A stretch of DNA of 37,255 nucleotides from a virus. Shown in pieces: positions 8,328-37,255 of this stretch (position 1 is the first letter of the stretch; each line of letters starts with the position of its first letter). The stretch covers positions 1 to 37,255 of IMG/VR virus record IMGVR_UViG_3300022871_000049. One strand, 5' to 3'. Made by a program: the position numbers and the translations under genes. The notes under the pieces are model-generated. The model was not told the DNA's origin, did no database searches, and saw nothing but the letters and a program-made list of their open reading frames with translations.

Positions 8328-9500
8328 ATGAAATTAGTGAAAAACAATGATGTTGAAGCCGAACAAGGTACCAATGTTTATTGTCAAGAATCATATGCAC
8401 AAGAGTTGTACAATCGTTTGATGGATAACGAAACTCGAATGCCAACAACAATAAAGGATTTTTCAGATAATGATCTTTTGTTAATAACAGGAGTAAGTTC
8501 AATAGGAAAAACCGATATAGAATTTGAAGTAAACAATTCAAATACTATATCAATTGATCTTAACAAGGAAAAGAAATTCATGAACATGTATAATTTGGAT
8601 ATTGATGAATTTCTTTTATGGGCAAAAGGAGATACTGAAAACTTTCTCAAGGAAGAATCTTACATTTACATCACAAATGATGCACAAGGAATCAAAGGGA
8701 GTTTATCAAAAGGTTTGGCTGAAAAAATGAAACACGAATTTTTTAAGCAGATAACAAAGCAATCAACTGCATACATTGCAACTGTATTATCAAAAAATCG
8801 TGGTGGTTTTTTGGTTGATATCTTTGGTGTTGAAGCATTTTTACCCGGTAGTCTTGCAGCACCGAATAAAATTGTGGATTTTGATCAATTCATTGGAACA
8901 AAGGTTAATGTAATGATTGAAGATTACTTGAAATCTATTGGAACATTTATTGTAAGCAATAAAAAATACATTAAACATATTTTACCGATAAAAATCAAGG
9001 AACTTGATACCGAAAAAAAATATGTGGGAGTTGTTACAGACACAGCAAAATTCGGAATATTTATAGAAATTGAAGAATTTTTTACTGGTTTACTTCATAC
9101 ATCAAAAATGGATGAAGAAACATTGCAAACATTCAGGAATAGAGAATTCAATCCCCATTCAACAATTGATGTTTATATCAAGGAAATTAATGAAAAAAAT
9201 AAAATTGTTTTTACAAGTTACACGCCGGAAAAACAAAAGGAAATTGATATAATTCTTGAGAAAGAAAAGGAAGCCGATAGGAAGGAAGCGGAAGAAAATG
9301 CATTTAAAGTTAATGAATCATATGATGGTTTAATTACTTCAATAAAATTATACGGAGCCTTTGCAAGAATTTGGAACGGTAAAAAAACAGTAACTGGTTT
9401 AATTTTAAACAAAGATCAAGGAATTGAAATACATGAAGGTGATAAAATGAAAATTACTATCAAAAATGCTGAAGATGGTAAATATTTCTTTGAAATATGA
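8328..9500 (+). CDS. S1-domain RNA-binding protein (ribosomal protein bS1-like)
   Basis: The product has 390 residues with three S1-type OB-folds by eye. Domain A is about 146-216 (AYIATVLSKNRGGFLVDIFG, EAFLPGSL, then the KVNVMIEDY strand). Domain B is about 230-299 (KYVGVVTDTAKFGIFIEIEE, GLLHTSKM, then IDVYIKEI and KIVFTSY). Domain C is about 331-389 (SYDGLITSIKLYGAFARIWN, VTGLIL, then DKMKITIKN). The N-terminal 140 residues are acidic and helical. The LLHTSKM box in domain B is typical of bS1 and related proteins. Bacterial bS1 has more domains, so this is a short version. Such proteins bind single-stranded RNA on the 30S subunit or act in RNA turnover. The gene heads its own operon after a 180-base gap without the late-type box. 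A role in favouring phage mRNA translation is inference. Confidence 0.82.
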   Translation: MKLVKNNDVEAEQGTNVYCQESYAQELYNRLMDNETRMPTTIKDFSDNDLLLITGVSSIGKTDIEFEVNNSNTISIDLNKEKKFMNMYNLDIDEFLLWAKGDTENFLKEESYIYITNDAQGIKGSLSKGLAEKMKHEFFKQITKQSTAYIATVLSKNRGGFLVDIFGVEAFLPGSLAAPNKIVDFDQFIGTKVNVMIEDYLKSIGTFIVSNKKYIKHILPIKIKELDTEKKYVGVVTDTAKFGIFIEIEEFFTGLLHTSKMDEETLQTFRNREFNPHSTIDVYIKEINEKNKIVFTSYTPEKQKEIDIILEKEKEADRKEAEENAFKVNESYDGLITSIKLYGAFARIWNGKKTVTGLILNKDQGIEIHEGDKMKITIKNAEDGKYFFEI

Positions 9501-10148: not shown

Positions 10149-10171
10149 AAAGCATGCTTTAAGCATGCTTT
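10149..10171. promoter_or_regulatory. Tandem AAGCATGCTT palindrome between divergent genes
   Basis: Two copies of AGCATGCT start at 10151 and 10162, 11 bases apart, in the divergent region between the minus zinc-ribbon gene (start 10129) and the plus gene at 10229. Together they form a hairpin with a 9-base stem (AAAGCATGC / GCATGCTTT, loop TTTAA). It could be an operator with two sites on the same helix face or a structured leader. The short T run after it makes a weak terminator possible, although no gene runs into it on the plus strand except past the terminator at 10018. Confidence 0.5.
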
Positions 10172-10199
10172 TGCCGTTTTAAAAAATTTTCTAACAAAG

Positions 10200-20524: not shown

Positions 20525-21217
20525 TTAACCTTGACTTTTTTGTATTTTTTTACAAATATCCACCAAAACTTTCACATCTTTTTTACAATAACGCCCAATT
20601 CCTTCTATGTTATTGTTTTGCCAGTATTCATGTCCAACATTTGAACCACTCATTTCATCTTTTGGAGATGGAATATCCAATGCCCAAGTTAATTCATCAA
20701 GAAAACAATTTTCCCAAGATGTTCCTTTCCACATGTCCATTGTATCCATGATTTTTATTTCCCATGGTTTTTTACCAAGAGTATTAAGGCATTTTGGAAC
20801 TTTAAACCCATACATCGTTAATTTTTTTACAAGATACGGTATATCAAATCCCTTTATGTTATGGCCAGATAAAATAAAACCAAGATCATCAACCTTTGCG
20901 AACAACCTAGAAATCCATTCTATTAAACTTTGTTCATCATCATTTTCAATGGTTTTAGATGATAATTTTAACTTACCTTCTTCAAAATACGCAAATGCAA
21001 TTGCCACAATTTTTCCGTATTCCGGAACAAGTGCGGCATTATCCTCATACGCAAGTTGTACTATTTTATTGTAAGATTCATTTGTGTTTTTTCTACGGTT
21101 GCATCTATCCTTGAAAACATTGGAACCTCTTTCGTCTTTTTCTGTAAACGTTTGAAAATTATCATAAAAGGAAACAGTTTCCAAATCAAAATAAAAAAAA
21201 TTTTTATAATTCATCAT
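20525..21217 (-). CDS. DEDDy-type 3'-5' exonuclease (PolB-exonuclease-related)
   Basis: The product has 230 residues with the exonuclease motifs in order: Exo I FDLETV (D11, E13), Exo II SGHNIKGFDIPYL (D125), and Exo III YCKKD (Y210, D214). Tyr four residues before the last Asp marks the DEDDy class. The layout, including KDEMSGSNVGHEYW before Exo III, matches the family of stand-alone exonucleases related to the PolB proofreading domain. It likely degrades single-stranded or mismatched 3' ends in DNA repair or replication. There is no polymerase domain. It is an odd gene within a tail region: minus strand, flanked by structural operons. Its promoter box is TATATAAA at 21236-21243 (minus). 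A second ATG at codon 2 (MM) is an equally possible start. Confidence 0.85.
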   Translation of the reverse strand: MMNYKNFFYFDLETVSFYDNFQTFTEKDERGSNVFKDRCNRRKNTNESYNKIVQLAYEDNAALVPEYGKIVAIAFAYFEEGKLKLSSKTIENDDEQSLIEWISRLFAKVDDLGFILSGHNIKGFDIPYLVKKLTMYGFKVPKCLNTLGKKPWEIKIMDTMDMWKGTSWENCFLDELTWALDIPSPKDEMSGSNVGHEYWQNNNIEGIGRYCKKDVKVLVDICKKIQKSQG

Positions 21218-28025: not shown

Positions 28026-31000
28026 ATGGAAACAAGAAAAACAAAATTCGACTCATTTTATAAAACAAATTTTTCAAAGGATTTAGTATTGAAAAATAAA
28101 AAAACTATTTTTCTAAGAATTGAAAATAGAATAGATAACAATGATATAAGTGATGCTCGTAAATTATGGATTGCTGTCATACCAGAAAGTACAGGTGATC
28201 AATTTAAAATTAATATGGTAAGTGCTACAGACTTAACGAATGAAGTTAATGAAGAAATAATTACCAACTCAGAATTATTTAATTTAACTGGATCTAATTC
28301 TTTGGAGAATATTAAAGGATTTTCCTATCCACCTAAAAGTTTTTGGAGGGAAGTTAATTTTGAAGGTAAAACAGATTTTAGAGTTGATTATTTTGGTATA
28401 TCCAATGAAATTTTAAAACTTAGATTTTTATTTAGTTCAATTGATCCTGATGATTTTGATAATGAATTACCAAAATTAAATACAATTAGCACTACAAAGG
28501 CTGGTGATGTTATACATACAGAAACAGAATCTAGTATTTATGTAAACTCAACTACAACAGAAAATATCTTAGAAAGTAAATTAACATCTGGAATAAAATC
28601 AATACATGAGAAAAATTTAACAAATTTTAATCATGCTCTATTTTTTAACACGAATTATAAATTTGATTATAAAGATGTTTTTATTACTGGATACGCTACA
28701 GAAGATGAAGATTTCAGCCGAAATTATGGTAATTGGTTAAATCATCCAATAAGTGAAAAAGAAATTGTAAATGATAAATCATCATTTGGTTTAATGCGAA
28801 CTAATCCCAAATTATCAGGAAATATTAAAATAACAATAGATAAAAATCAAGACCTTTGGTTGGATACAATTGATGCTAACGATGCTTTGATGGATTCCAA
28901 ACTTAAACGAATTAAACTTAATTCAAATTCATCATACCCAAGTGATATTAAAAAATTCATAAGTAAAATTCCTGGTGATGTTTTATTTGATCTTTATGAA
29001 AATGATAAAACTTATGAAAATACAAAAAGAACATTAAGTGATCAACATGATCTATTTTATAGTTACGGCGTACAGCAAAATGACAATGAATTCTATGATG
29101 AAGATTTATCGTTTTTTGCACCCATATGGTTAAAAAAAGAATTACCGGAATATTTTGTCATCTTTAAAGTTGATCATTCTGTTAGCTTAGATTCTTATAA
29201 AAATAAATCAAATAAAGATATTGTTGATAATATTTTAGGTGATGCAGAATTAATAAAAACATATGACATGAGAAAAGGTTCCAAACTTGGAACCTACATA
29301 AGAAACATAACCAACAATTCAAGGTTTTCTGAACAACCATTATTTGTAAATTATGAAAAAGATTCTGAAACTACGTGGTCTGGTATTGACTATAAATATG
29401 GTGTTATGACCACAAAATCAGAATATATTTTTGATAACATTACACAGGATTCACCAATTAAAGAATTTGAAGAATTTATAACAAACGGTTTTGAAAGAAA
29501 TGACTTAATTTGCTCTAATTTATTAAATTTAAGTTTTTTGTTCGATGATGAAACATCAGATTTTTATGAAATAAATAGGTATCTAGGATTTTATGTTAAT
29601 GCAATAGAATTAGCAACATTTAGATTAGATAAAGATGAATTCAAAAATATAACAGATCAAACATCAGTTGAAAATAAAAACAAAGGAGAAGAATACAATT
29701 TAAAACCATTTTTACAACAAAACGAAAATGGAATAATTTTACCAGTTAATCAAGAAAGTATTTCAGGTAAATTGCCACTTAAAGAACATGTTGATAATAA
29801 AACAAGATTTTTAGTAATTCAGGATAGAAATAGTTTTTTAAAACGAATTACCGATATTGTTGAATACCGTGAACAAAAAACAGGAATTCAAATTAACGAT
29901 GACATTTTAGATATTTCAAGATTTTTAGGAATAACTGAACTTTCACATCAATTTTTTGCTGAACATTTGAAAGATAGTCACGCGCAAATGGTTATAAATA
30001 TTGATGGAGATATTAAACAAGGCGAAATATTTAAAATTTCATTGAATGTCAACAATAAAAATGTTACTTGGGAGGTTGAAGCCAATGATAATGGCTTGGA
30101 ACAAGGTAATTTCTGGAAATATCCAGTTTATGATGTAAGTACAAATACAAATAAAAATGTTTTTTCTCATACAGGTGAACTGGAAGATATTGCTAAAGCT
30201 TTGGCAGGAGCATTTAATTCATTTGAAAATCGAATATTCAATGCATATGCTGAAGATGAAAATATTTACTTTATTACAAAAAATAAAGAAGAAAATTCAA
30301 ATAAAGTTCAATTTGAAAGAATTTTAAGTACTGGTTCATACATTAATGCAATTAAATTTTATGACATTATTCCAGAATTTGTTTACAACTACAATGTAGA
30401 TTTAAATGAATGTAATTTAATATATGAAATAGACAAAAGTAAAATTTCAGTAATGTATACAGAATATACAGTGAATGTATCAAATTTTAAATGGGGATCA
30501 CCGAGCAATGATTTATTTAATTTGGAAGTTTACAGAAATGATGGAACTGTTGCATTAGATGCATACGTGAAAATAGGTGAAGAGGTTTTAATTGATGATT
30601 TTTTAACACTTAAAGCTTCAGAAATTTCAGAAAATGGTACATTTAAACTTATTTTTGATGAAATGAATGGAAAATCATTTTTTAAAGGTGCTAATGAAAT
30701 TTTCAAAAATAGAATAAAAATTGATATAGATGAAGCGACAAATCTATCAAACAATGATTGGTTTCAAACACAATTTGAAAAATTTGAAAAATTAAAAGAA
30801 TTTAAAATAAATAATCAAAGTTTTTACCATTTACCGTATTTGGATGAACCAATTTTTGAAAACGGTATTTTAACAGGATTTAATAACATTGACAATTTTG
30901 CAATTTTACAACTTGATAATGAAAATACTAAATTTTATTTGGATAATGAAAATTACATCGTTTCATTTCATGTGTTCAACACACCTTTAAGTGTCCTTTC

Positions 31001-34000
31001 ATTTTTTAATGTTAAAGATTTTGATTTTGATTTTTTAAAATCAGATTATGCGTATTCACCTTTGCTAGAATTGGATACTTATTTCGGTGACACAAAAAAT
31101 GGATTTAAAATAGTTAAAGATAATGAATATGAATTAACTTTGTTTAATTTTTATAAAAAAACTGGAAATGCTAACTTAAAACTTTTCGGTTTATATGATA
31201 ATAAATGGGAAGAAATTTTAGATTTTATTGAAGATCCATATTTATTCAACACATTTACACCTAATACAATTTTTGAGAGTCCAGGAAGCCCAGGAAGCCC
31301 AGGAAGCCCAGGAAGCCCAGCAGGTAATTTATTCTTTAATAAACTTTACAAAAGATTTAAAATCAAAGTTATATCAGGTGAAGGCTCAATAATGAATTTC
31401 TCATATTTTCAAGATAAAGATTTAAATAATTTTCAAGGTTTTTCATTTTTACGAGATTTTTGGTACATAAATGATGAACAAATAATGCAAAATTTAATCA
31501 GTGAAAATAATTTTGATAGATTTTTGTATAAAATGTTATTTACTGAATATGATAAACTCGCAGAAAATTCAAGAATTGAATTTGCAACAACATCAAAAGT
31601 GGTCCCATTCATTAATAAATGGGTGCAGGAAGGTACCGATGCACGAGATAATAAATATCGTTTAAATGTTTCTTCAGCTTTCGGATATACCAATTTCTGT
31701 CCAGATTATTTTGAAGAAAAAACAAATCCGCATTCTTTAACTCATGAATGGAATTACATTGATAGAATACCAAAAAATTACGATCAGGATTCCATAGAAA
31801 ATATACGATCATATTTCTTTGATCGTCTAGATAATATTGTTCCAGTTTTAAATAAAACATGGTATGAATTATTTCATGATAATGACAAAGATTGGTTTAC
31901 AAAATATTTTACAATTGGCTATCCTACTGAAAAATTTAAAAATGTAAATGTAGTAAAAAGAAAAGAAGAACGTTTTTCAACAATAAGTTACGATAGTATT
32001 TTGGATAAAGCTTTCAGTTTATTTAGAGGCGCAAAATTTTCAATAATTGAAACCGATGAAGAAAATAATAAAGTCGAATTTTCACAATTGTATAATGATT
32101 ATAAATTTGCTTCAATTTTAACATTACAAGCAAGTGGCTCTAAAATTTCAACGGAAATAATTGATAACAGAAAATTTAAAACTTTGTTAATTATCACAAA
32201 AATTAATTCTGTTGATTATAAATTTGAAAATAATCTGGATTTTGTTTCATTGTATTCAACAAAATCCACCAAGCGTGAAATTCAAATGTTTGATCCTACA
32301 AATTTAACCATAAATTTATCAGAAACAGATGTTTCATTAGACAATAAAAATTACATAGAAAATTTTAATCAACGAATTTTTGAAAATAATAAAGGTGGAG
32401 CACTTCTTGATTATGCAGATGTTAAACTTTTATCAAACATTGATATTTCCTCGTACGCAAGAACAAATAAAATCAATGAAAATATTTCTGATTATGATGT
32501 TACATTTGAAATTAATACAAATATATTAGATAATTTAGGATTAAATGTTCAATCAGAAATAAAACCAGTAAGATCTCAATTAAACTTAAGTTTCTTTAAA
32601 AATACAAGTTACATGTTTGCTTCGGATGATAATGAATATTATCAATTGGATCCAATGTATTTTGAAAAATATAATATTTCATCATTTAGTTCATTTAATG
32701 ATCGTTGGCCATCCGGCGGTACAAATAACAGAAAACCATTAACTGGTGTTAGAGGTAAAAGTGAAACAAGCAAAACTTTTTTAAATGGTAAACTTTTAAC
32801 AATAATAGGAGGAAAAAATGTACAATACACATACGCTATACTTGGTGAAAATATTCATACATTATCTGAAAGAGAAATGACTTTTCCTTTATCAATTTCA
32901 TATGTTAACTCAGAAACATTTTACTTAAATGGTGGATTAAAAATTGCAGAAATTTACATAAATGAACTATCATTTTCAAAAATGATAAAACGATTAGAAA
33001 ATGATAAAAACTTAACATATTCAACGATAAACGAAGATGAATCAATAGATACAGATAGAAAATTTGAAATTGAATTTATTGAAACTGATAAAATTTTCAA
33101 AACAAATCTTGAACATGTTGAAATAGATACAGATAAACCTGTTGAATACTTAAATGTTGATGTTATCGGATTTGATGGACAAAAAACAAACGAGAAAGAA
33201 GTTTTATACAGACATAGAGGAAACTTTGAACCAAAAACCAGAAATATTTTGGATTTTTGGGTACGTGAAAATGATTCATTTTCTGATCACTATGGAATAG
33301 ATTTTTTAGGAACCAACACAAGATTTTTATCAGGTTTTAAAAATTTTGGTACCATTTTAAATAAGTTTTCAAATAAAATTGCAGACAATGAAATAATGAA
33401 AGTATCAAGAACTTCCAATTATAAAAGTTTGTATCCACATATAAATGAAACAACATTATACGCTAAAGATTATTTTACATTTTTAAGTTCATGGGATCAT
33501 AATTATTATGATAAATTTAATTCAATAGATGATAGTATTAAAATAGATGGAACTAATGACTTAACAGAAAAAAAATCATTTTTTGGAAGCAAAGTCATGA
33601 AAATTCCAAAAGTTTTTGAATTTGAAACATTTAATGATACAGAACTTGATTATAAAATTAATTCTGCTAAAGATGGTAAAGAAATTCAACAATTAACAAA
33701 AACAACAGAAAAAGAATTAAAAGATTTAAGTAATATCATAGAAATAAACAGTTTAAAATCTGATAATGATAACCCACAATTTGTAATAAAAAGAAGTGGT
33801 GGTTCTGAAAGGATGGTGGTATCATTGGATTACCTGGAAAAAATAATAGGTCAACCGATAAAAGTAAAACAAACAGAATCTGAACAAACCAAAAAAAGTA
33901 TAAGCATAACTGTAAATGCTGGAAATCGATTAATAAGAGATATGTTGGAAAATAATGCTTTATCAGAATTCGAATGGCTAAAAGATAGTAAAATTCCAGA

Positions 34001-34295
34001 TTTTGTTAATCTAACATCACATGAACTTGAAATAAAAACACAGGATTACATTGAGAAAAATATCTTAAGTTTATATGAAATATACGAAGTAAAATTATTT
34101 TCAAAATCATCAAATGATAAAAATTCTATTTTGTTAACAAATGTAACAAAAGAAGAACTTTTAGCACAAGATTTTACCGAAGATAAAGGAATAAAGGTGG
34201 AAGAAGGAGAAAATCTTGTGTTAAAGATTGAAAAAATACTAGATTCAAAAGACTTTAAATCATTTATTTTATCAATAAGTATAAAAAGAATTTAA
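28026..34295 (+). CDS. Giant virion structural protein (2089 residues) with collagen-like insert
   Basis: This is the largest gene in the window. About residues 370-530 carry a conserved-looking block: LPEYFVIFKVDHSV, then KLGTYIRNITNN, the WSGIDYKYGVMTTKSEY strand, FITNGFERNDLICSNLLNLS and FLFDD. I associate this with giant baseplate proteins of large myoviruses. At about residues 1085-1100 there is a collagen-like run, SPGSPGSPGSPGSPAG, in a beta-rich context. The C-terminal 250 residues are charged and helical. It is in the same operon as the previous giants and begins 6 bases after the preceding stop. A role as an outer baseplate or fibre-anchoring protein is inferred from size, position and composition. 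No catalytic motif was seen. Confidence 0.7.
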   Translation: METRKTKFDSFYKTNFSKDLVLKNKKTIFLRIENRIDNNDISDARKLWIAVIPESTGDQFKINMVSATDLTNEVNEEIITNSELFNLTGSNSLENIKGFSYPPKSFWREVNFEGKTDFRVDYFGISNEILKLRFLFSSIDPDDFDNELPKLNTISTTKAGDVIHTETESSIYVNSTTTENILESKLTSGIKSIHEKNLTNFNHALFFNTNYKFDYKDVFITGYATEDEDFSRNYGNWLNHPISEKEIVNDKSSFGLMRTNPKLSGNIKITIDKNQDLWLDTIDANDALMDSKLKRIKLNSNSSYPSDIKKFISKIPGDVLFDLYENDKTYENTKRTLSDQHDLFYSYGVQQNDNEFYDEDLSFFAPIWLKKELPEYFVIFKVDHSVSLDSYKNKSNKDIVDNILGDAELIKTYDMRKGSKLGTYIRNITNNSRFSEQPLFVNYEKDSETTWSGIDYKYGVMTTKSEYIFDNITQDSPIKEFEEFITNGFERNDLICSNLLNLSFLFDDETSDFYEINRYLGFYVNAIELATFRLDKDEFKNITDQTSVENKNKGEEYNLKPFLQQNENGIILPVNQESISGKLPLKEHVDNKTRFLVIQDRNSFLKRITDIVEYREQKTGIQINDDILDISRFLGITELSHQFFAEHLKDSHAQMVINIDGDIKQGEIFKISLNVNNKNVTWEVEANDNGLEQGNFWKYPVYDVSTNTNKNVFSHTGELEDIAKALAGAFNSFENRIFNAYAEDENIYFITKNKEENSNKVQFERILSTGSYINAIKFYDIIPEFVYNYNVDLNECNLIYEIDKSKISVMYTEYTVNVSNFKWGSPSNDLFNLEVYRNDGTVALDAYVKIGEEVLIDDFLTLKASEISENGTFKLIFDEMNGKSFFKGANEIFKNRIKIDIDEATNLSNNDWFQTQFEKFEKLKEFKINNQSFYHLPYLDEPIFENGILTGFNNIDNFAILQLDNENTKFYLDNENYIVSFHVFNTPLSVLSFFNVKDFDFDFLKSDYAYSPLLELDTYFGDTKNGFKIVKDNEYELTLFNFYKKTGNANLKLFGLYDNKWEEILDFIEDPYLFNTFTPNTIFESPGSPGSPGSPGSPAGNLFFNKLYKRFKIKVISGEGSIMNFSYFQDKDLNNFQGFSFLRDFWYINDEQIMQNLISENNFDRFLYKMLFTEYDKLAENSRIEFATTSKVVPFINKWVQEGTDARDNKYRLNVSSAFGYTNFCPDYFEEKTNPHSLTHEWNYIDRIPKNYDQDSIENIRSYFFDRLDNIVPVLNKTWYELFHDNDKDWFTKYFTIGYPTEKFKNVNVVKRKEERFSTISYDSILDKAFSLFRGAKFSIIETDEENNKVEFSQLYNDYKFASILTLQASGSKISTEIIDNRKFKTLLIITKINSVDYKFENNLDFVSLYSTKSTKREIQMFDPTNLTINLSETDVSLDNKNYIENFNQRIFENNKGGALLDYADVKLLSNIDISSYARTNKINENISDYDVTFEINTNILDNLGLNVQSEIKPVRSQLNLSFFKNTSYMFASDDNEYYQLDPMYFEKYNISSFSSFNDRWPSGGTNNRKPLTGVRGKSETSKTFLNGKLLTIIGGKNVQYTYAILGENIHTLSEREMTFPLSISYVNSETFYLNGGLKIAEIYINELSFSKMIKRLENDKNLTYSTINEDESIDTDRKFEIEFIETDKIFKTNLEHVEIDTDKPVEYLNVDVIGFDGQKTNEKEVLYRHRGNFEPKTRNILDFWVRENDSFSDHYGIDFLGTNTRFLSGFKNFGTILNKFSNKIADNEIMKVSRTSNYKSLYPHINETTLYAKDYFTFLSSWDHNYYDKFNSIDDSIKIDGTNDLTEKKSFFGSKVMKIPKVFEFETFNDTELDYKINSAKDGKEIQQLTKTTEKELKDLSNIIEINSLKSDNDNPQFVIKRSGGSERMVVSLDYLEKIIGQPIKVKQTESEQTKKSISITVNAGNRLIRDMLENNALSEFEWLKDSKIPDFVNLTSHELEIKTQDYIEKNILSLYEIYEVKLFSKSSNDKNSILLTNVTKEELLAQDFTEDKGIKVEEGENLVLKIEKILDSKDFKSFILSISIKRI
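31278..31322 (+). repeat. 9-base tandem repeat encoding collagen-like SPG triplets
   Basis: Five 9-base units of agcccagga type (first unit agtccagga, last diverged to agcccagca) encode SPG x4 and SPA. The GC-rich unit stands out against the AT-rich surroundings. The repeat is in frame. Confidence 0.9.
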
Positions 34296-34300
34296 AGGAT

Positions 34301-34372
34301 AGACAACTCAAAATTTAAGTTTCTTGCACAAAGTTCAGTCTAATGACCACTTTAGCGTGCAAAGGGTTGTCT
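34301..34372 (+). ncRNA. 72-base structured RNA element of unknown function
   Basis: AGACAACTC (34301-34309) pairs with GGGTTGTCT (34364-34372), a 9-base-pair stem with one T-G wobble. Inside, TTGCACAAAGT (34324-34334) pairs with ACTTT (34349-34353) and GTGCAA (34357-34362), with a 3-base AGC bulge. The apical part has GTC/GAC around TAAT. The 14 bases at 34310-34323 form an unpaired 5' side. It starts 6 bases after the stop of the 2089-residue gene and ends before the TATATAAT box. There is no U tract, so it is not a standard intrinsic terminator. It may be a 3'-UTR stabiliser, a processing site or a small RNA. Confidence 0.55.
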
Positions 34373-34380
34373 CTGATAAA

Positions 34381-34390
34381 GATATATAAT
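34381..34390 (+). promoter_or_regulatory. GATATATAAT box, candidate late promoter of the collagen-like fibre gene
   Basis: The sequence TAAAGATATATAATC places TATATAAT at 34383, 27 bases before ATG 34410. It differs from the other boxes only in the last base. Confidence 0.45.
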
Positions 34391-34409: not shown

Positions 34410-37255
34410 ATGATAAGCATTAAAACAGTACTATCCGGGGATACTTACAATGAAAGTATTCAAAAAATAAACGAAAATTTTAACCAATTGATGAATAGTG
34501 GAGGAGGGCCTTCAGGCCCTCCTGGAAATTCTGGTTTTCCTGGATTACCCGGACAAGATGGATTACAAGGGCCTTTGGGTTTACCTGGTACAACTGGTAC
34601 AAGATTCATTGTATTCGAAAGTGATAATCCAGGCTTAAACCTTTATCCACCAACAAATTTAACATCGCAACAAGCAATCATACTGGGGCATCTGGAAGGA
34701 GATACTTGGCTTGATCAAACTGAAAATACTTATTACGTTTTATCTTTTATTCCTTCACCAAATTGGGACACCAAAAAACATGATTGGATACTTGACGAAC
34801 AAATATTTAAAATGTCATCAACTACGATCGATTCAGTATCTTATGAACAAACACTTTTAAATACTACATATTTTCAACATGGTAATAATCCAACCTCAAA
34901 ACCATTAAATGATTTAGATTTATTTCATACTTCTGTTTGTTTATCTTCTGTTCTTTTAAGTGATCCAATAAGCATTGAAGATGTCTATAATAGTGCAAAC
35001 TTTCAAAAACCAATAATTGGAACTTGGGAAAGAAAGAATTTTAAGTTTTCAATAGATCAAGTAAGACAAGAAGCGGAAGGAGAACAAGGTTATGTTCCTT
35101 CTATTTACGGTGGAATTTTAAAAGGTTATAATTTTACACCGATTCTTTATTTGGGTGAAAGATTTGATACAACAACTGTAACTTCTGGTTTTGGGTTTTT
35201 ATTATACAGTGAAACTGGTGAAACAAAACAAATTTTAAACTTAACTGGTGATGATGATAGCGAAATTTATTTTGGTACAAATAAATTATGGTCAGACGGT
35301 GAAATTTTATTAAATACACATGGAGATTATGGACTTAATTCATTTAGTTCAATTTCAAAATCCAGAGTAAGTGCATCTTCATCTTGGTATGGTAACCAAG
35401 CTTATATTATTGAACCTGTTGAAACGTTTTCATCTTCCAGAAGAACTACAGGAATGGAAATAAGAAAAGAATCAAATGAATATGAAACATCGATACATTT
35501 TTGGACATCGGAAGATCCATTTCATCCTACAGATACATCAAAACAATCCAAAGAAGTATTAGAAATTAAATCGGACGGAGATCTTGAAATATTGGATGGA
35601 AATCTTATCATCACAAAGGATTCTGGTTTGGATAAAGTCCTTACAGATGATGGAACTGGGAAAGCTGTCTGGTCGGATGGAGGAAATGATACAGATAACA
35701 CACCATATTATACAGTAACAATGTATCCAAGTTCAAGTACAACCGCAACAACAACTTTACCTGAAGGTTGGTATAATTGTGATGGTAAAGCTTATGAAAT
35801 GAATGAAACTATTGCAGGTGAACCTTGGCTTACCGCATATGGTGGATATAGTACTAGTATTTATTTCATAACACCAAATTTAGTGAGATTTACTGAACTT
35901 GGATTTAACATGAGAAGCATCATAAAATTACCACCTGGCTTAACATACGCAGTACCAACTGGTAATTACAATTACATATGTTTAGGTGAATCCATTGATG
36001 ATACTTTAATTCCAACACCATTTAATACTGAAACTGATGGTATCTGTGGAGCTGTAGAAGAAGAAGATCCACCAACTGCATTGTTTACAATTGATCCTGA
36101 AACTGGTTTCGAACCTCAGGAATTTACATTCGATGGTTCAACCTCAACAGATCCATTGGATGATCAGGAAGACTTAATGTTCAAATGGGAAGGAATTAAT
36201 CTTCCTTCAGAATATGAAACTTGGGCAATTGGAAGAATAAAAACTTATACATTTAATAATTATGGAACATTTCCTGTAACATTAACCGTTAAAAATACAT
36301 TAGGTAAAATTGATATAAAAACAATTAATCTTACTGTAAATGAAGAGGTTGCTTCACCATCATTCATACAACCAACTTCCGGTTTTACATATGATCCAAC
36401 AGAAGGTGTTATTAATGTAACTGAATTTACATTCACAAGTACAGCATTAAATTACAATAATACACCAGCAGATGATCTTGGTTTACAATTACGTTGGTAT
36501 CTTGGTGAAGGAAATTGGACATCATGGGGTACTGATAAAACACCAACCAAAACTTTCACAACAATCGGTAGTAAGTCAATCAAACACCAATCACGTTTGG
36601 TTGCTGATACAGATGTAACAAGTACAGAAGTTACAGTTGTTGTAACAGTATCAAGCGCACCTAACATTGATTTTTTAACATTCAGTAATAAAATTGAAGT
36701 TGATGATATATTAATTGAAAATAATGATCAATTATTATTTCAAGCAGGAGAAGGTATTAATTTAACAATTTACTTGGATGTAAAAATGATAAAAATTGAT
36801 TTAGCACCAAGCTCAACTGGAACAGTTACATTTGAAGGTATTTCACAGAAACCAACTTCAACTAATTATTGGTCAATTGGTGTTACTGATTGGGATAGAA
36901 CAAATACTTATACAATGAAAATTGAACCAAATGATTCATTCCGTTTCATTGCTGGAGAAAATTTAGAATTATACCAAGAATTTGGCACAATTGGTAGCAC
37001 AACATCAGCAATTGAAATAAGTTTTGATCCGTCTGGTTACGTTGTTACAAGAACTGGTTCAGATGGAGATTCAGGCGATGGTTGGAACTTTGGAGTAACA
37101 TCATCTGAAGAATACATAAGTGATTCTGTAGATTTAATTAAATCAGGTGATACTTTATTTTTTACAGGTGATAGTAGTTCAATTTTAACAGAACATGATA
37201 CTTTAAATAAAATAATAAAAATTTCTTATAGTGGTGGTGTAAAACCATATATGAA
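34410..37255 (+). CDS. Collagen-like tail fibre protein with PKD-like domains (3' truncated by the window)
   Basis: The frame is open from ATG 34410 to the window end, at least 948 codons. The N-terminus (MISIKTVLSGDTYNESIQKI, then NENFNQL) resembles the fibre-like protein at 21318 and is probably the baseplate attachment. It is followed by 11 uninterrupted Gly-X-Y triplets at about residues 33-65 (GPSGPPGNSGFPGLPGQDGL), a collagen-like trimeric shaft. A large beta region follows. A PKD domain lies at about 553-640 (PPTALFTIDPETGFEP, FDGSTSTDP, YGTFPVTLTVKNTLGK) and a second related beta-sandwich at about 645-755 (ending VTVVVTVSSAPNIDF). Such domains often bind surface polysaccharide or form spacers, so this is likely the receptor-binding fibre. 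Its own TATATAAT box and the upstream structured element suggest separate control. Confidence 0.8.
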   Translation, partial: MISIKTVLSGDTYNESIQKINENFNQLMNSGGGPSGPPGNSGFPGLPGQDGLQGPLGLPGTTGTRFIVFESDNPGLNLYPPTNLTSQQAIILGHLEGDTWLDQTENTYYVLSFIPSPNWDTKKHDWILDEQIFKMSSTTIDSVSYEQTLLNTTYFQHGNNPTSKPLNDLDLFHTSVCLSSVLLSDPISIEDVYNSANFQKPIIGTWERKNFKFSIDQVRQEAEGEQGYVPSIYGGILKGYNFTPILYLGERFDTTTVTSGFGFLLYSETGETKQILNLTGDDDSEIYFGTNKLWSDGEILLNTHGDYGLNSFSSISKSRVSASSSWYGNQAYIIEPVETFSSSRRTTGMEIRKESNEYETSIHFWTSEDPFHPTDTSKQSKEVLEIKSDGDLEILDGNLIITKDSGLDKVLTDDGTGKAVWSDGGNDTDNTPYYTVTMYPSSSTTATTTLPEGWYNCDGKAYEMNETIAGEPWLTAYGGYSTSIYFITPNLVRFTELGFNMRSIIKLPPGLTYAVPTGNYNYICLGESIDDTLIPTPFNTETDGICGAVEEEDPPTALFTIDPETGFEPQEFTFDGSTSTDPLDDQEDLMFKWEGINLPSEYETWAIGRIKTYTFNNYGTFPVTLTVKNTLGKIDIKTINLTVNEEVASPSFIQPTSGFTYDPTEGVINVTEFTFTSTALNYNNTPADDLGLQLRWYLGEGNWTSWGTDKTPTKTFTTIGSKSIKHQSRLVADTDVTSTEVTVVVTVSSAPNIDFLTFSNKIEVDDILIENNDQLLFQAGEGINLTIYLDVKMIKIDLAPSSTGTVTFEGISQKPTSTNYWSIGVTDWDRTNTYTMKIEPNDSFRFIAGENLELYQEFGTIGSTTSAIEISFDPSGYVVTRTGSDGDSGDGWNFGVTSSEEYISDSVDLIKSGDTLFFTGDSSSILTEHDTLNKIIKISYSGGVKPYM

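Follow-up and report, generated by a model that had tools for sequence, protein, structure and literature searches.

A hairpin-forming stretch upstream of a phage fibre gene: probably part of an ordinary gene boundary or promoter

The type case of the phage late promoters with an A/T-rich box is the late promoter of T4 (TATAAATA), and the mRNAs of the phages T4 and T7 contain intercistronic stem-loops and RNase III sites. Both systems bear on positions 34301-34372 of a 37,255-nt virus record (the window, meaning the whole stretch of DNA that was analysed), which the initial annotation had described as a compact structured RNA between a baseplate gene and a fibre gene. As in T4-type late promoters, a short A/T box lies at a fixed distance before structural genes, here family-wide; unlike in T4, the box reads GATATATA, and an extra upstream motif accompanies it at some promoters only. 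Like the stem-loops of T4 and T7, the element lies between late genes and might define where an mRNA ends, but the sequence comparisons gave no sign of processing or conservation. The features of the locus, with the basis of each in brackets, are as follows.

28026..34295, + strand: baseplate-type structural protein, 2089 aa (ORF, tblastn, synteny)
34296..34380, + strand: private 85-nt segment from stop codon to promoter box, against about 0-60 nt in the nearest relatives (junctions of 45 relatives)
34301..34309, + strand: 5' arm of the outer stem, AGACAACTC (fold)
34324..34362, + strand: inner bulged hairpin, TTGCACAAAG...CTTTAGCGTGCAA (fold; pattern scans of IMG/VR and GTDB gave no relative)
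34364..34372, + strand: 3' arm of the outer stem, GGGTTGTCT, overlapping the promoter-upstream motif GTTGTCTNTGA (fold, motif)
34366..34388, + strand: extended promoter motif GTTGTCTCTGATAAA-GATATATA (spacing as in the promoters of the w265 homologue, see below, in distant relatives)
34381..34388, + strand: GATATATA box, probably the fibre gene's late promoter (conserved family-wide)
34410..37255, + strand, running off the window: fibre gene, collagen-like and PKD-containing (946 aa in L002, a second contig of the same virus)

The structural proteins of the window match those of huge or jumbo phages, mostly of Bacteroidetes hosts, namely LR756500 (462 kb), Lak-A1, Sphingomonas phage PAU, the Tenacibaculum phages pT24, PTm1 and PTm5, Chryseobacterium phage MA9V and Flavobacterium phage MaF61; homologues of the 2089-aa protein were found by tblastn in LR756500, PAU, PTm1/PTm5 and the Lak phages. 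Judged by these matches, the window derives from a huge phage akin to phages of Bacteroidetes and covers part of its genome. The second contig is 99.6% identical to it over 6.6 kb, and the end of the window (37241-37255) departs from that contig so that the fibre reading frame ends differently, either as a contig-end artefact or as real variation. Two further details of the window are a short collagen-like run (SPGSPGSPGSPGSPAG) near the middle of the 2089-aa protein, and a PolB-type 3'-5' exonuclease-like gene (PF10108) at 20525-21217 on the minus strand, against the direction of the surrounding structural genes.

Fold prediction for the 72 nt gave a minimum free energy of -19.6 kcal/mol and reproduced the proposed 9-bp closing stem and 11-bp bulged inner stem. 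The outer stem pairs 34301-34309 with 34364-34372 (9 pairs, one of them G-U) and the inner stem pairs 34324-34334 with 34349-34362 (11 pairs as 6+5, with a 3-nt bulge); a 3-bp apical stem caps the inner hairpin, and a 14-nt one-sided (asymmetric) internal loop separates the outer from the inner stem. The placement of the element between a stop codon (34295) and the next promoter-like box (34381-34388) is right, and the sequence 3' of the stem, CTGATAAAG, bears out the statement that no U tract follows. The element had also been said not to be a tRNA, and ARAGORN indeed finds no cloverleaf. A ribozyme was likewise set aside, the hammerhead core being absent by eye and Rfam giving no ribozyme match.

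The fold is real, yet unremarkable when one takes into account how its boundaries were chosen. Against 3000 dinucleotide-shuffled sequences, p is 0.005 for the 72 nt as first delimited, 0.025 (z -2.2) for the stretch from stop codon to promoter box (34296-34380) and 0.066 for the whole intergenic gap, so that a fold better than that of shuffled sequence is obtained with the boundaries first drawn and is marginal otherwise. A helix of at least 9 bp is present in 8-13% of the shuffles. Elsewhere in the window, some 17 non-overlapping stretches of 72 nt, mostly inside genes, equal or exceed the element in stability, and the rarity implied by describing the genome as otherwise unstructured was overstated; among the few non-coding gaps of the window, the element is one of the better folds. 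These figures, and the absence of the element in all relatives read, are what would be seen if the segment were an AT-rich spacer whose inverted repeat arose by chance and whose structure, as RNA or DNA, has no function. Such incidental pairing is nevertheless unlikely in our view, as the gap is unusually long for this junction and contains a shared promoter motif (described below). Stability peaks elsewhere in the window: the best 72-nt stretch (-26.5 kcal/mol) falls on a perfect GC-rich hairpin (GGAGGGCC-TTCA-GGCCCTCC, 34500-34525) where the fibre gene's collagen-like repeat begins.

To compare the locus across the family, the orthologous baseplate-to-fibre junction was read in 45 relatives (34 + 11, some of them near-duplicates), with a conserved gene order of 718 aa - 1239 aa - 2089 aa - fibre. 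The gaps at these junctions span 2-103 nt (9 nt in LR756500), and none of the 45 holds a comparable element, nor do the nearest relatives have a comparable hairpin upstream of the box. The copy in the second contig of the virus is identical and adds no variation; two-sequence alignments were used because single-protein searches for close relatives yielded that contig alone. A covariance model of the element, searched against 81 sources, returned nothing beyond the virus's own copies, and pattern scans for the inner hairpin in IMG/VR and GTDB genomes recovered the same virus only. With a looser pattern for the left arm in IMG/VR, both matching right arms among the at least 120 matches listed were again confined to this virus. 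Blastn of the element against phage records gave chance matches (E 9), no extra copy was found in the window or any fetched relative, and literature searches returned no description of the element or of the GATATATA box. Because it is absent at the junctions of the 45 relatives and its sole other copy is an identical one in the same virus, the element is, by these comparisons, private to this virus.

Neither conservation nor strong energetics supports, in these comparisons, a compact functional RNA such as a dedicated small regulatory or cis-regulatory RNA with a specific structure. The element beats shuffles if its boundaries are taken as given; against this, no second version appeared in any search, no promoter on the + strand is recognised just upstream (matches to sigma-70-type promoters around it do not rise above chance), and Rfam has no gathering-level match in the window, with chance matches only in the region (E 3-9, searched to E 10). 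The original framing as a compact structured RNA fares poorly, given the lack of the element at the junctions of relatives, the marginal fold and a competing DNA-level account of the 3' arm, and we consider a dedicated RNA highly improbable. The suggestion of a recombination target found no supporting evidence either. A small mobile or recombination element with AGACAACTC and GGGTTGTCT as terminal inverted repeats would appear, as this one does, as a private insertion relative to the junctions of relatives, and the similar A-rich strings TAAAGGATA and TAAAGATATA lie on either side of it; however, it is present in single copy in the window and all fetched relatives and has no clear target-site duplication, making an insertion of this kind extremely improbable.

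The position of the hairpin allows a role at the end of the upstream transcript. Stop-to-box gaps between codirectional genes of relatives often hold intrinsic terminators (LR756500, pT24, PAU, MaF61, L020 and L043; z -3.0 to -4.4), and the element occupies the same slot, at the end of an operon and before a promoter. It might therefore mark or protect the baseplate operon mRNA at its 3' end, just before the fibre promoter, as a stabiliser, a processing site or a non-canonical terminator. The likeness to the intrinsic (Rho-independent) terminators before the ATATATA boxes of LR756500, PAU, pT24 and MaF61 lies in having a hairpin between stop codon and promoter box. It does not extend to form: the hairpins of relatives are compact and mostly have U runs, whereas the element has a long stem with bulges and its asymmetric loop, is not a compact GC-rich hairpin with a U tract, and is not listed by a terminator scan; several other codirectional gaps in relatives hold no hairpin at all. 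Of the earlier proposal of a role at the mRNA 3' end, the hairpin and its operon-end position stand, the lack of a U tract and the terminator scan speak against it, and we regard the role as a fair, though less likely, alternative.

The box itself can be followed throughout the family, ~20-40 nt upstream of the fibre start or of further structural genes. Many of the 45 relatives have the same GATATATA box 20-40 nt ahead of the fibre gene; in the nearest relatives (~42-44% identity in the 718-aa protein), GATATATA or ATATATA is found within a few to ~35 nt of the stop codon, with the ATG 20-40 nt after the box, and in the window the fibre ATG (34410) is 21 nt past it. Near relatives have GATATATA shortly upstream of 22 of 199 ORF starts, with an A-rich stretch after the box, and the window has three exact copies of AGATATATAA, with a + strand ORF beginning 15-22 nt after each. 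Conserved in this way upstream of the orthologous gene, as members of a late-promoter class are, GATATATA is a probable promoter box and the fibre gene's own late promoter, where "late" is deduced from the position ahead of structural genes. Sequence alone suffices to recognise the family-wide box, and the upstream motif where a promoter has one, in huge relatives of LR756500 and PAU; this would make the transcription units of these uncultured phages predictable, which is more useful than the RNA finding, itself of little consequence. A terminator-like hairpin (AAAGCATGCTTTAAGCATGCTTTT, 10150-10180) is also present upstream of the GATATATA box at 10199.

The 3' arm of the outer stem together with its flank (GTTGTCTCTGATAAAGATATATA) matches a conserved promoter-upstream motif of a different structural gene in distant relatives, with identical spacing: GGGTTGTCTCTGATAAA-GATATATA of the window matches AAGTGTTGTCTGTGACAAT-GATATATA and variants of it ahead of the gene homologous to the window's 265-aa gene (w265). 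On a matrix from the promoters of these distant relatives, the 20 nt immediately upstream of the window's box obtain 13.5; of 250 boxes the best unrelated one obtains 2.1, and the fraction of random 30-mers from the window that attain 13.5 is 2.5e-5; it should be noted that the match was noticed after the fact, and these values are to be taken with caution. The strict pattern GTTGTCTNTGANNNNGATATATA occurs in 14 stretches in all of IMG/VR, comprising 12 promoters of w265 homologues, one in this virus and one that is intragenic. Within the window GTTGTCT is found once and AGACAAC only twice, and in near relatives TTGTCT/AGACAA amounts to 1.43 per kb in non-coding against 0.53 in coding sequence (9 sites); L031 carries TTGTCTC palindromes upstream of the promoter of its w265 homologue. 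The motif of the relatives is near-palindromic (TTGTCTGAGACA) and the copy in the window half palindromic (TTGTCTCTGATAA), with an inverted AGACAAC 63 bp upstream of the motif (centre to centre) that forms the outer stem with it. The fibre promoters of near relatives and the window's own w265 promoter are without the upstream motif.

We tentatively favour, with somewhat less than even confidence, a reading of 34301-34372 as mainly upstream regulatory DNA of the fibre gene's late promoter, possibly also serving as a transcript-end hairpin. The motif GTTGTCTCTGATAAA would be bound by a putative regulator, as suggested by the near-palindromic version in relatives, and the inverted AGACAAC would provide a second half-site, making the outer "RNA stem" a by-product of two inverted half-sites; on read-through of the upstream operon, the segment would also give that transcript a 3'-terminal hairpin. 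This promoter reading leaves the inner hairpin unexplained. A more elaborate arrangement seems very unlikely, namely a regulatory RNA or operator-hairpin specific to this lineage that acts as a switch, either terminating the baseplate transcript or activating the fibre promoter, by way of a motif that a second late structural gene also has. Taken as a whole, the hairpin stretch probably belongs to an ordinary gene boundary or promoter.

Two arrangements at the promoters of w265 homologues were also observed. The near-palindrome TTGTCTGAGACA is found at ~9013-9045 of L068, and in L064, L066, L084, L086, L091 and L094, between the start of a minus-strand gene and the GATATATA box of the w265 homologue; the proteins of these phages share only ~35% identity with those of the window, and the near-palindrome resembles a divergent operator. 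In L035 (~9060-9124; the same in L022 and L034), a ~20-bp inverted repeat (AATGTATTTTTTCTGCCTTT / AAAGGCAGAAAAAATACATT) surrounds the GATATATA box and puts the promoter box of the w265 homologue in the loop.
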